NCBI GenBank assembly: GCA_019635775.1
Contig: JAHBYU010000002.1
Span: 1 to 64,000 of the forward strand
Direction of reading: 5' to 3'
Length of the DNA stretch: 64,000 bases
DNA from: Rhizobiaceae bacterium
Lineage (GTDB): Bacteria > Pseudomonadota > Alphaproteobacteria > Rhizobiales > Rhizobiaceae
The number at the start of each line of letters is the position of its first letter. Position 1 is the stretch's first letter. A model generated the notes under the pieces. The model saw nothing but the letters and a program-made list of their open reading frames with translations. It was not told the DNA's origin and ran no database searches. The position numbers were made by a program, and so were the translations under genes. Below are positions 17,950-35,626 of this stretch, in pieces.

Positions 17950-19178
17950 TACGCGCCTCCCGACGATGCTGTCGCCCCTACGAGGAAACGTTCGGACAGG
18001 GGCAGGCTGGCACCACCCAGCGCACGCGCATGAATGCCGACACTGCCTTCCCGCACTGAAGGGACGCTCAACCCTTCTACGTCGATCGTCAGGATTGCTT
18101 TCTGAACGGCTGCCACGAGCCGTGCCCGTGCGAACTCCGGCATCCATCCGTCGATCAATGCAGCCTCGAAGTCGATGACTGCGGCGGATGCGATGATCGC
18201 ATAGGCAATTGCCGCGCCAGCGGTTTCGAACCACGCATCGACTTCAGGTCCTGCGTATTGCCACTCATCGGGAGAGGTCCATAGGAAATTTGCATCGATC
18301 CCTCTGGCGTTCAGCGCCTTTTCCAGCATTGCCAGAGACGCGACATCGATAAGTTGCGTCGGCCTGCCGTCAGGACCTGGCACTGGCATGGATCCCAGTG
18401 CCCCTGCATTGCCGCTGGTGCCGCTGTAAAGTCGGCCGTTGAGCACAACGCCGCCGCCTGCGAACGCCCCAATGTAGAAATAGACGAAATCGCGTAAATC
18501 GCCTGTCTGACCGAACACGAGTTCAGCCCCGCAAGCCGCGGTCGCATCATTCTGCAGGTAAACCGGACAACGGCATTGCGCCTGAATATCCGCCTTGATG
18601 TCGCGATGTCGCCACTGATCCATGATCTCTCGCGGCGCGCCGGCTGTGTCGGCCCAGTTCCAGAGCTCGAAGGGCATGGCAACGCCGACGCCGGCGATGC
18701 GCCGGTCCTGATCTGCCGTGAGGCCCGCGCGTAGACGGCTGATGCCAGAGCCGACGAAACCTAGGATGTCTGCCGGAGCGGGATAGCGGTACGAGTTCTG
18801 CAACATCCCCCGCAAGTTGCCGAGAAAGTCTATCAGGACGAGCTCCGCGCTTCGTCGCCCGATCTTCAGTCCGATGAAGTAGGCGCCATCCGGATTAAGC
18901 GCCATCGGAATGGATGGCTGGCCTACCCTGCCTCGCTGAGGCGTCTGGCGCAGTAGAAGACCCTCTTCCTCCAATTCGCGCATAATGACCGATACGGTCT
19001 GAACGGATAGCCCCGTCATTCGCGCGATTTCGGATTTGGCGAGGCTGCCATTCTTTCGAACGAGAGACAGCACGAGGCGCTCGTTCTGGTCACGCATGCC
19101 GCTCTGATTGGTGCCGCGATGGTGGACAGGCGCGATGGCCGCCGCAGATAGGCCGCGCGGAGCCCTGGTATCCTCCAC
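17949..19178 (-). CDS. frcR: ROK-family transcriptional regulator of the fructose locus (FrcR-like)
   Basis: A 409-residue protein with an N-terminal winged HTH (about residues 46-75: LAKSEIARMTGLSVQTVSVI) and a C-terminal ROK sugar-kinase-like domain (LQNDATAACGAELVFG, GAFAGGGVVLNGRLYSG). I chose GTG 19178 because GGGAGG sits 5 nt upstream; the open frame extends to 19304 without a ribosome-binding site. The CxCGxxGCxE zinc motif of classical ROK proteins is missing, replaced by a GNAGALGSMPVPGPDG stretch. It is divergent from frcBCA with a palindrome between, so it probably represses the transporter and its own operon. Confidence 0.88.
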   Translation of the reverse strand: MEDTRAPRGLSAAAIAPVHHRGTNQSGMRDQNERLVLSLVRKNGSLAKSEIARMTGLSVQTVSVIMRELEEEGLLLRQTPQRGRVGQPSIPMALNPDGAYFIGLKIGRRSAELVLIDFLGNLRGMLQNSYRYPAPADILGFVGSGISRLRAGLTADQDRRIAGVGVAMPFELWNWADTAGAPREIMDQWRHRDIKADIQAQCRCPVYLQNDATAACGAELVFGQTGDLRDFVYFYIGAFAGGGVVLNGRLYSGTSGNAGALGSMPVPGPDGRPTQLIDVASLAMLEKALNARGIDANFLWTSPDEWQYAGPEVDAWFETAGAAIAYAIIASAAVIDFEAALIDGWMPEFARARLVAAVQKAILTIDVEGLSVPSVREGSVGIHARALGGASLPLSERFLVGATASSGGA

Positions 19179-19263: not shown

Positions 19264-19384
19264 GACTCGAGGCTTGGGTTGATGTCTTGATGATCGGGAG
19301 ACATCCGTCAGGGAAGGTTGCGGATGTTCCTCCAGGCCGGCGAGGCCAGGCCTGTCGTGATCTTTTTCAATCCGGGAGGATACC

Positions 19385-31621: not shown

Positions 31622-33621
31622 TGGATAGAAGGTCGGGAGCGGCGACGGAACCGCGCTTCGGCGCACAGGTCACCGATGACGGCGTTCGGTTCGCAGTGTG
31701 GTCGAGCGCAGCCGAGCGCATGTGGGTTTCGCTCTTCAAAACCGCTGGATACGACGAACTAGACCGACTTGAACTAGCGCGTGGCGAAGACGGCTTGTTT
31801 TCGCTCCTTGTTCCTGGCCTCAAGCAAGGTGCTCACTACGGCTTTCGCGCTGACGGGCGATACGCTCCCGAACAGGGGTTCTGGTTCGATCCGGCCAAGC
31901 TCTTGATGGACCCATACGCACTGTCGATAAGCTTGCCCTATCGATACAACGCGCTGATGGCGGCGCAGCGCTGGCAGCAGGTCGATACAGCCCCGATGAT
32001 GCCGAAGGCAATTGTCGTGGCGCCGACTGTTGCCGAGACCAGGCCGCCAGTATTCACCTCCGGCAAACTCATCTACGAGCTCAATGTTCGCGGTTTCTCC
32101 CGTATGCATCCCGATGTGCGGCCCGAGCTGCGCGGGACACTGTCTGCTCTTCGCGAACCTGCAGTCTTGGAACATCTGAAGAGACTTGGGGTAGGTGCCG
32201 TCGAATTGATGCCGATCACGGCGTCCATGAATGAGCGGCACCTGCAGCCGCTCGGGTTGAGAAACGCGTGGGGCTACAATCCGGTGACATTTATGGCGCT
32301 GGATCCCGATATTGCTCCGGGTGGATGGTTGGAATTGCGCCAAACCGTTGCGGCACTCCACGAGGAGGGCATTGGCACCATCCTGGACCTGGTCTTCAAC
32401 CACACGGCCGAGAGTGACGTTGAGGGTCCGACCGTCTCGCTGCGCGGGCTCGACAATCTGGCTTACTACCGTCACGACAACGAAGGCAGGCTTGTGAATG
32501 ATACCGGCACAGGAAACACGGTAGCCTGTGACCATCCCGTTATGCGCGAGATGATCGTCGACAGCCTGCGCGCCTTCGTGAACTATGCCGGCGTCGACGG
32601 TTTCCGTTTCGATCTGGCGACCATCCTCGGGCGGACGACGCACGGTTTCGATGCGCAGGCGCCACTTTTTGAAACGATTGCTGCTGATCCGGTGCTTTCA
32701 GATCGCATCTTGGTGGCAGAACCCTGGGACATAGGTCCAGGCGGTTATCAGTTGGGCAATTTCTCCGAACGGTTTCTCGAATGGAACGACCGCTATCGCG
32801 ATGACGTCAGGCGGTTCTGGCGTGGTGATCGTGACACGATCGGCACGCTGGCAACCCGGCTTGCGGGATCGTCGGATATCTTTGGAAGGCGTCACGAGAC
32901 CCAGATGACGCGCACGGTCAATTTCGTCGCTGCTCATGATGGCATGACCCTGGCCGATGCTTGCGCCTATGAGCGCAAGCACAACGAAGCAAATGGGGAA
33001 GAGAATCGCGACGGCCACAACGAGAATTTTTCTTGGAACAACGGGGTCGAAGGCGAAACGGCCGACGAGGAAATTGTCGCGCGGCGCCGACGCGATATCA
33101 AGGCACTGCTCAGCACCCTGTTCCTTTCGCGTGGAACGATCATGCTGACAGCCGGCGATGAGTTCGGCCGGACGCAAAAAGGAAACAACAACGCGTACGC
33201 GCAGGACAACGAGTTGACATGGCTGGATTGGGAGCGGCGTGACACCGATCTTGAGGCTTTCGCTTTCAGGCTTGGCGAACTGCGCAATACCGCTCCGGGG
33301 CTTACGACCACTGCATTGCTCTCGGGCGCGAAAATCAATGGAGTGGCCGATGTCGAGTGGCTTTCCGAAACGGGAGAGCCGTTGCAGACCGGGCAGTGGG
33401 AGGAACCGGACCGGCGCCGACTTTGCATGCTTCTTGCCGGGGGAACGGAAAGCGGTGGTCGGCTAGCGATCATGATCAATGGTGCTGCGGAAGGGGTTTC
33501 CTTCTGTTTGCCGTTGCGCGATGAATTCGAATGGCGGCTGATCCTGCCTTGCCAGGGAGATCAGCCAGGGATCAGATGGGACGTGACCGGTCGGACGGTC
33601 GCGATAGCGATCGAGCGATAG
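31621..33621 (+). CDS. glgX: Glycogen debranching enzyme
   Basis: Cleaves alpha-1,6 branches of phosphorylase-limited glycogen. The 666-residue GH13_11 protein has an N-terminal CBM48 (GAQVTDDGVRFAVWSSAAERMWVSLF), a barrel with GVDGFRFDLATILGR (nucleophile Asp), ILVAEPWDIGPGGYQ (acid/base Glu) and NFVAAHDGMTLAD (third Asp), and the long NEANGEENRDGHNEN loop typical of GlgX/TreX. Its ATG overlaps the pgm stop by 1 nt. Confidence 0.96.
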
Positions 33622-33644
33622 CGGGTCGCCGAAGAGGTTTGCCG

Positions 33645-35279
33645 ATGGGTGACTCGCAAGGCGATCCGGACTGGTGGCGCGGCTGCGCGATATACCAGGT
33701 CTATCCGCGCTCATTTCAGGATACGACTGGCGACGGCAGCGGAGACCTGAAAGGCGTTACGCAACGCATGGGCCATATCGCTTCGTTGGGCGTGGATGCG
33801 ATCTGGCTGTCCCCCTTCTTCAAGTCACCGATGGCGGACATGGGCTACGACGTCTCCGACTACACGGCGGTCGATCCCATGTTCGGCTCGATGGAAGATT
33901 TTGACGCGCTGGTCGAGGAAGCTCACCGGCGTGGTCTGAAAGTCATCATCGATCAGGTACTCTCCCACACCTCCGACAGGCATGCCTGGTTCGCGGAAAG
34001 CCGAGCAGACCGCATCAATCCAAAGGCCGATTGGTATGTCTGGGCGGATGCGAGGCCCGATGGCGGCGCACCGAACAATTGGCTTTCAGTCTTTGGCGGA
34101 TCGGCCTGGGAATGGGATTCTGTCCGGCGACAATACTACATGCACAATTTCCTGGCCGCACAACCCGATCTCAACTTTCACAATCCGGAGGTTCAGGATG
34201 CTTTGCTGGATGCAGTGCGGTTCTGGCTGGAGCGCGGCGTAGACGGCTTTCGGCTGGATACGGTCAACTACTACTTTCAGGATCGCTGGCTGAGGAGCAA
34301 TCCCCCTGTCGCCGAAGCCGCCGCAGGTACGATCGGCGAAACCAATCCGTACCTTTACCAGCTGCATCTTTTCGACAAGTCGCAGACGGAGAATCTCGAT
34401 TTTCTGAAGCGTTTTCGCTCCCTGCTCGACGAATACGAAGGCCGAGCATCAGTCGGCGAGGTGGGCGATGAGACGCGTTCGTTGCAGACGGTCGCGGAAT
34501 ATACCAGCGGCGGCCAGCGACTGAACATGTGCTACACCTTCGACATGCTGGGGCAGGAGTTTTCCGCTGCCTATGTCCGGGACCGCGTTGAAGCCTACGA
34601 ACGCAAAGTCGCCGATGGGTGGGTTTGCTGGGCTTTCTCCAACCACGACGTTGTTCGCCATGTATCGCGGTGGGTGCGCCTTGGCGAGGATTTCGATGCC
34701 GTCGCAAAATTCGCCATTACTGTGCTCGGCTGCATGCGCGGTTCCATCTGTCTTTACCAGGGCGAGGAATTGGGACTGACCGAAGCCGAGATCGCCTTCG
34801 AGGATTTGCGCGATCCCTATGGAATTCGTTTCTGGCCGGGTTTTAAAGGAAGGGACGGCTGCCGCACGCCGATGGTATGGGAGGTCGAGGCCGACAACGC
34901 CGGCTTTTCGACCGGCAAGCCGTGGCTTCCGATATCGCGTGAGCATCTGGGACGTTCTGCGGACGTCCAAAGTGGAAGCCCCGCCTCGGTTCTTTCGCAT
35001 TACCGGGCGGTACTTGCCTTAAGGAAAAGCCGGCCCGCGCTGGTCAAAGGGTCCATCAAGTTCATTGACGGTGATGACGAGGTGCTTGCGTTCTTCCGCG
35101 AGGCAAAAGCGGAAAAGCTCGTCTGCGTCTTCAATTTCTCCTCGGAGGAGAAGCGCTGGACGTTGCCGGGAGGGACGCTGGTCTTTGAGGAATTCGACCT
35201 TGGCGAGCGACATGCAAGGTTGGAGGGGATGCAGATAACGCTGCCGCCACGCGGTTGCTTCCTGGGCCGCGTTCTCTAG
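33645..35279 (+). CDS. GH13 alpha-glucosidase (oligo-1,6-glucosidase-like)
   Basis: A 544-residue GH13 enzyme of the alpha-glucosidase/oligo-glucosidase group. It starts DWWRGCAIYQVYPRSFQDTTGDGSGDLKGV; catalytic regions are GVDGFRLDTVNYYF (Asp), ASVGEVGD (Glu) and FSNHDVVRH (Asp), and it ends with a small beta domain. There is no signal peptide, so it acts in the cytoplasm, probably on the short oligosaccharides left by GlgX and GlgP or on imported disaccharides. It starts 23 nt after glgX, and ATG 33645 is the natural family start. It is the last gene before the small RNA on the opposite strand. Confidence 0.93.
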   Translation: MGDSQGDPDWWRGCAIYQVYPRSFQDTTGDGSGDLKGVTQRMGHIASLGVDAIWLSPFFKSPMADMGYDVSDYTAVDPMFGSMEDFDALVEEAHRRGLKVIIDQVLSHTSDRHAWFAESRADRINPKADWYVWADARPDGGAPNNWLSVFGGSAWEWDSVRRQYYMHNFLAAQPDLNFHNPEVQDALLDAVRFWLERGVDGFRLDTVNYYFQDRWLRSNPPVAEAAAGTIGETNPYLYQLHLFDKSQTENLDFLKRFRSLLDEYEGRASVGEVGDETRSLQTVAEYTSGGQRLNMCYTFDMLGQEFSAAYVRDRVEAYERKVADGWVCWAFSNHDVVRHVSRWVRLGEDFDAVAKFAITVLGCMRGSICLYQGEELGLTEAEIAFEDLRDPYGIRFWPGFKGRDGCRTPMVWEVEADNAGFSTGKPWLPISREHLGRSADVQSGSPASVLSHYRAVLALRKSRPALVKGSIKFIDGDDEVLAFFREAKAEKLVCVFNFSSEEKRWTLPGGTLVFEEFDLGERHARLEGMQITLPPRGCFLGRVL

Positions 35280-35301
35280 GCAAGCTTTATCGCCAGAAAT
35301 G

Positions 35302-35335
35302 AAAAGGCCCGCCGGGGGAGGAGGTCCGGCAGGCC
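35302..35335 (-). terminator. Rho-independent terminator of the anti-SD small RNA
   Basis: GGCCTGCCGG (35326-35335) pairs with CCGGCGGGCC (35306-35315), with the 10-nt anti-SD motif as loop and a TTTTC tail. Terminator and third target-binding loop are thus the same hairpin. Confidence 0.8.
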
Positions 35336-35410
35336 TGATCTGAAACGCGGCACGGGAGGAGGTGTACCGCATTCGTCACTGACTCTCTGGGAGGAGGTAG
35401 ATCGTCAGTA
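35302..35410 (-). ncRNA. Trans-acting small RNA with three anti-Shine-Dalgarno hairpin loops (alpha-r14/NfeR1-like)
   Basis: On the minus strand the 10-mer ACCTCCTCCC occurs three times (35389-35398, 35354-35363, 35316-35325), each forming the whole loop of a hairpin. Stem 1: 35378-35388 with 35399-35409 (6 bp, 2-nt internal mismatch, 3 bp). Stem 2: 35347-35353 with 35364-35370 (7 bp, one G-U). Stem 3: 35306-35315 with 35326-35335 (10 bp, one G-U), followed by TTTT as an intrinsic terminator. A promoter (TTGCAT/17/ATAGGT) places the 5' end near 35410, about 109 nt in all. The alpha-r14 rhizobial sRNAs are known for such motifs; family membership is inferred from structure. Confidence 0.85.
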
Positions 35411-35416
35411 ACACTG

Positions 35417-35445
35417 ACCTATCCGATTGCTCACGGATGATGCAA
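35417..35445 (-). promoter_or_regulatory. Putative promoter of the small RNA
   Basis: Minus-strand TTGCAT (35440-35445), 17-nt spacer, ATAGGT (35417-35422). The predicted start about 7 nt beyond the -10 box coincides with the base of hairpin 1, which supports the assignment. The -10 box is a weak match. Confidence 0.5.
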
Positions 35446-35549
35446 GCATTATTTCTGCATAGCAGATGTGCATTACCGGCCATGTCACGCGGCTACACCG
35501 TGCTCGACCAGTCGGCGAATGCCAGAAAAGCCCTAAGTCCTTGGAATAC

Positions 35550-35626
35550 TGGTCGGAGTGGCAGGATTTGAACCTGCGACCCCATCGTCCCGAACGATGT
35601 GCGCTACCAGACTGCGCTACACTCCG
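35550..35626 (-). tRNA. tRNA-Pro (anticodon CGG)
   Basis: A complete 77-nt tRNA on the minus strand. The acceptor stem CGGAGTG pairs with CACTCCG, the encoded end is CCA, and the anticodon stem CATCG/CGATG encloses the 7-nt loop TTCGGGA, giving anticodon CGG. The T-arm contains GGTTCAAATCC. Confidence 0.96.

Follow-up and report, generated by a model that had tools for sequence, protein, structure and literature searches.

The locus lies on the minus strand of the stretch of DNA analysed here (64 kb, hereafter the window), between the last gene of a glg cluster and a tRNA-Pro(CGG) gene (Table 1). It has no overlap with the glg-cluster gene, which ends at 35279, and it is not directly downstream of a DUF1127 gene; its upstream neighbours are the tRNA-Pro gene and a PGM/PMM gene. 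The 10-mer ACCTCCTCCC occurs exactly three times in the window, each time on the minus strand and all within a span of 83 bases, compared with a mean of 0.13 occurrences in shuffled windows, of which none of 100 reached three. Folding of the minus strand of 35295-35410 gave three hairpins, the 10-nt loop of each being exactly ACCTCCTCCC. The fold has an energy of -50.9 kcal/mol (z -6.15), and equal stability was reached in 0 of 200 shuffles. The initial annotation had described three identical loops in consecutive minus-strand hairpins between 35302 and 35410; the description was borne out by three perfect ACCUCCUCCC loops, and the coordinates proved good to a few bases, the Rfam match (35300-35416) being slightly wider.

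Table 1. Features at the sRNA locus and in its upstream region, in order of position.
Feature	Position	Strand	Remarks
GH13 alpha-amylase-family gene	33531-35279	plus	end of the glg cluster; converges on the sRNA
Hairpin 3	35299-35336	minus	loop ACCUCCUCCC at 35316-35325, then short U tract CCUUUUC
ar14 (RF02344) sRNA	35300-35416	minus	Rfam match, fold and covariation; probable transcript from ~35410 to ~35300
Hairpin 2	35343-35374	minus	loop ACCUCCUCCC at 35354-35363; both orthologue differences in its stem preserve pairing
Hairpin 1	35377-35410	minus	loop ACCUCCUCCC at 35389-35398
Putative weak -10 GGATAG	35419-35424	minus	spacer of 16 nt; several homologues have CTATAT-like elements here
Second TGC-N11-GCA site	35428-35444	minus	at -28, across the core promoter; tentative NtrC site
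Putative -35 CTTGCA	35441-35446	minus	proposed from its sequence and the layout of CTTGAC-N17-CTATAT
TGCA-N9-TGCA TGCACATCTGCTATGCA	35456-35472	minus	core formed by the box at 35459-35471; also fits the NtrC pattern TGC-N11-GCA
LsrB/VtlR-type box GCACATCTGCTAT	35459-35471	minus	6 of 7 specified bases of GCAT-N3-TG-N3-T
tRNA-Pro(CGG)	35550-35626	minus	lies upstream, same strand; diverged spacer between it and the sRNA

Hairpin 3 together with the CCUUUUC tract forms a probable intrinsic terminator. A simple scan reported no terminator at the locus, probably because it permits loops of 3-8 nt only. An open reading frame of 117 aa on the minus strand (35019-35372) runs through part of the RNA and was attributed to chance in view of the covariation of the hairpin pairs.

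The window was compared with 4227 Rfam families, and the matches above threshold were two tRNAs and the ar14 RNA (RF02344), the latter with a score of 80.5 bits against a gathering score of 58.8. Under relaxed limits, the same stretch also gave matches below cut-off to CcsR1 (RF02791; 39.8 bits, cut-off 65.3), sX13 (RF02232; 19.9 bits, cut-off 50) and CC3664 (18.3 bits, cut-off 60), and the window copy had no match to ar15 (RF02345) at E values up to 1. ar14 is the family of Sinorhizobium meliloti NfeR1, and its hallmark, as described in PMC10746234 and PMC3927594, is a set of three hairpins that share the loop CCUCCUCCC and vary in their stems. At the locus, three hairpins are present, CCUCCUCCC is unpaired in each loop, and the stems are variable yet paired. 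The covariance-model score, the three-hairpin structure and the covariation reported below thus uphold the assignment to alpha-r14 (NfeR1) made in the initial annotation, and there is good support for the locus being a new member of a family known before from root-nodule bacteria and variously called ar14, NfeR1 or "cuckoo RNA".

When 394 genomes from the family of the window were searched at the DNA level, 190 gave matches, many in the third hairpin only, and 30 loci, the window included, were aligned as the homologue set. When the window structure was counted on these 30 sequences, 90.8% of the cells could pair, compared with 35-48% when the structure was slid, a control that is biased in favour of the structure because the structure was taken from one of the 30 sequences. 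Changes on both sides were found in 25 of the 34 pairs, while shuffles averaged 15.3 and reached 25 in 0 of 500 cases. The hairpin stems are under selection, and in homologous loci they are conserved by pairing. Within the genus, four genomes including the window's own were compared, and an orthologue was found in G001 only and not in G002 or G003. The G001 orthologue shows eight differences over the 116 folded positions, two of which fall in stems and keep a standard pair and six of which are at unpaired positions. A fold that starts from 35416 adds two outer pairs to hairpin 1, both of which are broken in G001; among the 29 sequences with letters there, they are broken in 18 and 20, respectively. 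The two outer pairs are not conserved, which speaks against them and would agree with an RNA that starts near 35410.

The initial annotation had further suggested that the position of the sRNA beside the glg genes and tRNA-Pro may be a new genomic setting. Neighbours were surveyed in the best 80 of 276 named loci having a relative of the adjacent GH13 gene. The result showed that three motifs lie beside the GH13 relative in one of these 80 loci (L035, a Mesorhizobium MAG, which also has tRNA-Pro) and not in 78; in L109, also among the 80, the sequence stops 2 bases past the gene. Rarity beside the GH13 gene therefore stands, but the wider setting recurs: in two genomes of another genus (G122 and G193), the sRNA, tRNA-Pro(CGG), ManC/GlcNAc-2-epimerase, betaine-aldehyde dehydrogenase and further neighbours follow the order of the window. 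Because of this shared gene order, the setting is likely to be older than the window genome.

Four ar14 matches above the cut-off and one weak match below it were found in the genome that contains the window. Among the four above-cut-off copies of the genome, the window copy alone lacks a protein gene directly upstream, and it alone gave a recognisable promoter box in a scan. Two tandem copies (G000:C1:777490-777773; L189, L243) lie behind a 46-aa DUF1127 gene, and ar14-type copies behind a DUF1127 gene represent the arrangement called CIN1 in PMC10253847. Another copy (G000:C7:94793-94905; L190, L244) lies directly behind a phasin gene (PF09361) and upstream of tRNA-His, and this order of phasin, ar14 and tRNA-His is also seen in other genera. 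In a survey of 41 genomes, including the window's own, ar14 was matched in 32 and exceeded the cut-off in 25. The locus L234 (G023:C23:266663-267184) contains a DUF1127-like gene followed by a tandem array of four ar14 copies, of which one scores slightly below the cut-off. Nine of the 30 homologues, the window and G001 included, have the copy behind a tRNA gene of the same strand; the preceding tRNA is Leu(CAA) in L293, L297, L298 and L289, Ala(GGC) in L287 and Pro(CGG) in L300 and L303.

The loop motif had been proposed to act on strong GGGAGG ribosome-binding sites in the window. Such sites do precede the genes named frcB (19385, plus strand) and frcC (20518, plus strand) in the initial annotation, but the one reported before frcR requires a start at 19178 on the minus strand, the longest open reading frame of that gene starting at 19304. 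Pfam identifies the product of frcB as a sugar-binding-type protein, that of frcC as a permease and that of frcR as a ROK protein, and the NCBIfam matches of all three are below cut-off. These domains are consistent with a sugar ABC transporter and a ROK regulator, the frc names themselves being those of the initial annotation. When the longest starts were used, loop pairing of -12 kcal/mol or better was found at 5 of 53 window ORFs (9%), with glgC (27261), frcB and frcC ranking first, second and third. The rate of 9% has to be set against the 3.9% of 1060 stretches inside genes that reach the same value. When starts were partly chosen by ribosome-site strength, 11 of 53 ORFs reached -12 kcal/mol or better, a count inflated by that choice, and frcR ranks first only if it starts at 19178. 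Pairing between the loops and ribosome sites is to some extent expected of any anti-Shine-Dalgarno sequence. NfeR1 of S. meliloti has been shown to repress through GGGAGG sites (PMC10746234), and by analogy it is plausible that the window sRNA represses mRNAs through such sites. With longest starts, the glgC start is the best loop-pairing ribosome site of the window (-15.0 kcal/mol), and the glgC cluster adjoins the sRNA.

Among the targets of NfeR1, ntrB is the best studied, and pairing of an NfeR1 loop with the ntrB start region has been shown for S. meliloti. The same pairing was expected in the window genome and was not supported: at the ntrB start (L242, G000:C11; start assigned in this analysis), loop pairing reached -5.9 kcal/mol, a value matched by 55% of 1414 background stretches. 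The ntrB start region contains no GGGAGG-type site, implying that this genome may lack the feedback between NfeR1 and ntrB described for S. meliloti, and suggesting that the loop need not be general.

Comparison with the G001 orthologue showed 97.4% identity in tRNA-Pro, 49.4% in the spacer, 82.5% in the 57 bases before the RNA and 94.9% in the RNA. Because the 57-base upstream block and the RNA are far better kept than the spacer to tRNA-Pro, the sRNA is probably transcribed from a promoter of its own. A promoter scan of the E. coli type gave no hit at the locus. The layout CTTGAC-N17-CTATAT, used for placing the putative -35 element in Table 1, is given in PMC8844928; the CTTG of this element is not kept in the orthologue. 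PMC8844928 also places the S. meliloti LsrB consensus, GCAT-N3-TG-N3-T, at -61 to -49 of PabcR1. The distance of the box GCACATCTGCTAT equals this published distance if the RNA starts at 35410, the 5′ end proposed in the initial annotation.

To what extent this box is shared was assessed on 80 ar14 copies, comprising 79 of the 80 same-family matches of the 41-genome survey and one from the window genome, leaving out one weak match of the same family and 12 from other families. The results showed that at least 6 of the 7 specified bases of the LsrB consensus are present at -62 to -49 in 12 of 29 copies that do not lie behind a DUF1127 gene, a phasin gene or another copy, compared with 1 of 36 copies that do; this comparison covers the 65 of 80 copies having at least two loop motifs, which were sorted into upstream classes by motif and not by gene annotation. 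The background in the window is 0.00143 per position, or about 2% per copy. Among the DNA-level homologues, 17 of 30 match at least 6 of 7 bases and 13 have no match that good; G122 and G193, which share the setting of the window, reach only 5 of 7, as do other homologues with a similar RNA. The longer pattern TGCA-N9-[TG]GC[AG] was found in 9 of 80 ar14 upstream regions, compared with 0.31 in shuffles, and this count is post hoc because the pattern was picked after the window copy had been seen, whereas the LsrB test uses a published consensus.

The AbcR (ar15) copy of the same genome lies directly 3′ of a LysR gene and carries TGCATGGGAGGTGTGCG, an instance of TGCA-N9-[TG]GC[AG], at -62. The pattern is present at -75 to -45 in 12 of the 27 ar15 upstream regions tested, which represent 27 of 35 matches. 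The ORF preceding the LysR gene looks like a thioredoxin reductase gene, and from this gene neighbourhood we infer that the LysR protein next to AbcR is LsrB; the NCBIfam matches listed for it stay below cut-off, and LsrB is not among their names. One LysR protein may drive both AbcR and an NfeR1-type RNA, in which case the silencing of nutrient uptake would have two layers in the same genome.

The reading that we consider most probable (about 0.75) is that the locus encodes a self-standing, trans-acting ar14 sRNA that has its own promoter, is activated by LsrB/VtlR and silences mRNAs with GGGAGG sites through its loops. A sigma70-type promoter belonging to the sRNA itself would start transcription near 35410, and the transcript would end at the third hairpin. 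The LysR-type protein LsrB/VtlR, a known regulator in stress and symbiosis, would most likely activate this transcription via the predicted box. The three identical, unpaired CCUCCUCCC loops would pair redundantly with GGGAGG(A)-type ribosome sites, and this pairing would block the translation of mRNAs such as that of the frc-type sugar ABC operon. Family membership, the selected structure, the conserved upstream block, the match to the LsrB consensus and the complementarity to ribosome sites are established here; transcription, LsrB binding and the silencing of particular targets are inferred, and the three-loop antisense blocking of ribosome sites is a mechanism borrowed from NfeR1.

The assignment of the regulator is tentative, because the same site fits both the LsrB and the NtrC patterns. 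The box at -56 might be an NtrC site instead of, or besides, an LsrB site, through which NtrC would repress the window copy in the way it represses nfeR1 in S. meliloti (PMC10746234). Both the window copy and the orthologue have TGC-N11-GCA at -56 and a second time at -28, where it overlaps the core promoter; among the 30 homologues it occurs at -55 to -57 in 18 and at about -28 in 6, the window copy and the orthologue being among the latter. Furthermore, G248, G341, G122 and G193 have TGC-N11-GCA and lack a good LsrB match. However, both the published LsrB consensus and the distance given for it suit the -56 site, the AbcR promoters of the same genomes share the pattern, and the NtrC site of S. 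meliloti lies further upstream, at -101 to -116 (PMC10746234), so that we regard control by NtrC as rather unlikely.

That the locus is a silent, decaying paralogue is improbable, given that none of the three loops is damaged, that the two differences in the core stems preserve pairing, that the upstream block has diverged less than the spacer, and that the window copy alone among the four above-cut-off copies of the genome has a recognisable promoter box. The observations in favour of decay are that the genome has three further above-cut-off copies, that the -10 element is weak, that G002 and G003 of the same genus have neither the orthologue nor a tRNA behind the GH13 gene in the stretches examined, and that in S. 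meliloti one of six copies only was detectable by Northern blotting (PMC7143759). Similarly improbable is processing of the sRNA as a trailer from the tRNA-Pro primary transcript without a promoter of its own: the same-strand tRNA-Pro(CGG) gene does end 133 nt before the RNA, and of the 30 homologues 4 are preceded by tRNA-Pro, 4 by tRNA-Leu(CAA) and 1 by tRNA-Ala, but the spacer is much less similar to that of the orthologue than the 57 bases before the RNA (49.4% vs 82.5%), and a box at the same distance is also found in copies without a tRNA in the stretch examined.

The self-standing sRNA with a predicted LsrB-type box proposed here resembles NfeR1 (Smr14C2), which is described as an RNA of 115-123 nt with three hairpins and CCUCCUCCC in each loop, its own promoter with an LsrB-type box, and many predicted ABC-transporter targets (PMC10746234, PMC7143759, PMC8844928). 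Independence from Hfq and induction under stress and in symbiosis are further traits of the NfeR1 transcript. It differs from NfeR1 in that the core promoter CTTAGAC-N17-CTATAT, which describes the S. meliloti nfeR1 gene and not the ar14 family, has no match within 200 nt upstream of the window copy, in that the LsrB motif of nfeR1 itself, TGCA-N6-GCAT, is absent upstream of it, and in that complementarity to ntrB is not above background. The DUF1127-linked cuckoo RNAs (CcsR1-4 with CcaF1 in Rhodobacter, and CIN1) have the same loop motif and hairpin design; according to PMC10253847 they are cut from a DUF1127 transcript, whereas the window copy stands alone. In addition, the Rfam model of CcsR1 has two hairpins, and the window copy has three. 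AbcR1/2 (ar15, RF02345) likewise have an LsrB-type box before the gene, anti-Shine-Dalgarno motifs and ABC-transporter targets (PMC8844928), but they form a separate RNA family. The model consensus of sX13 (RF02232) from Xanthomonadaceae shares C-rich loops with the window copy, but the score is far below the cut-off (19.9 vs 50 bits). This comparison separates the self-standing members of the cuckoo RNAs from those that lie behind protein genes, and turns a loop pattern into a testable regulator.

Viral contigs were scanned for three spaced CCTCCTCCC motifs, which gave 63 stretches, part of them coding repeats as judged by eye. Ten viral stretches were checked against Rfam, and ar14 was above the cut-off in nine. 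About 40 ar14-type copies were found among the IMG/VR loci L115-L177 (for instance, L149 4477-4596 and L163 5255-5377), and the distance between the RNA and a relative of the L149 helicase is 118-267 bases in 40 copies. The best match of the L149 helicase is to a Rhizobium phage (71% identity). In L149 and L163, the RNA is located between a replication helicase and a phage exonuclease, and it is therefore inside the phage replication region and not in a host flank. The LsrB consensus was present, with at least 6 of 7 bases, in 41 of the 47 phage upstream regions tested, mostly at -54; this count leaves out 17 of the 63 loci that were judged by eye to be coding repeats, and the phage copies are interrelated and thus represent few independent events. 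For six cultured phages related to the sRNA carriers, stretches of ~7.7 kb around the helicase were compared with Rfam and gave no match, and the sRNA of two phage loci had no match in 50,697 phage records. No report of a phage-borne ar14 sRNA appeared among the literature matches listed.

We give roughly even odds to the view that ar14 contains a distinct, self-standing, LsrB-controlled branch that includes the window copy but not the copies behind DUF1127 and phasin genes, and that a phage lineage related to rhizobial phages captured a member of it, together with its LsrB box, and keeps it beside the replication helicase gene. If this is true, LsrB of the host would switch on a phage-borne blocker of ribosome sites, and the phage copies, if expressed, would represent the use of a host-type anti-Shine-Dalgarno RNA by a phage. 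One of 20 helicase loci from bacterial genomes, the prophage-like L325 (G381:C28), also has three CCTCCTCCC motifs between relatives of the helicase and the exonuclease.
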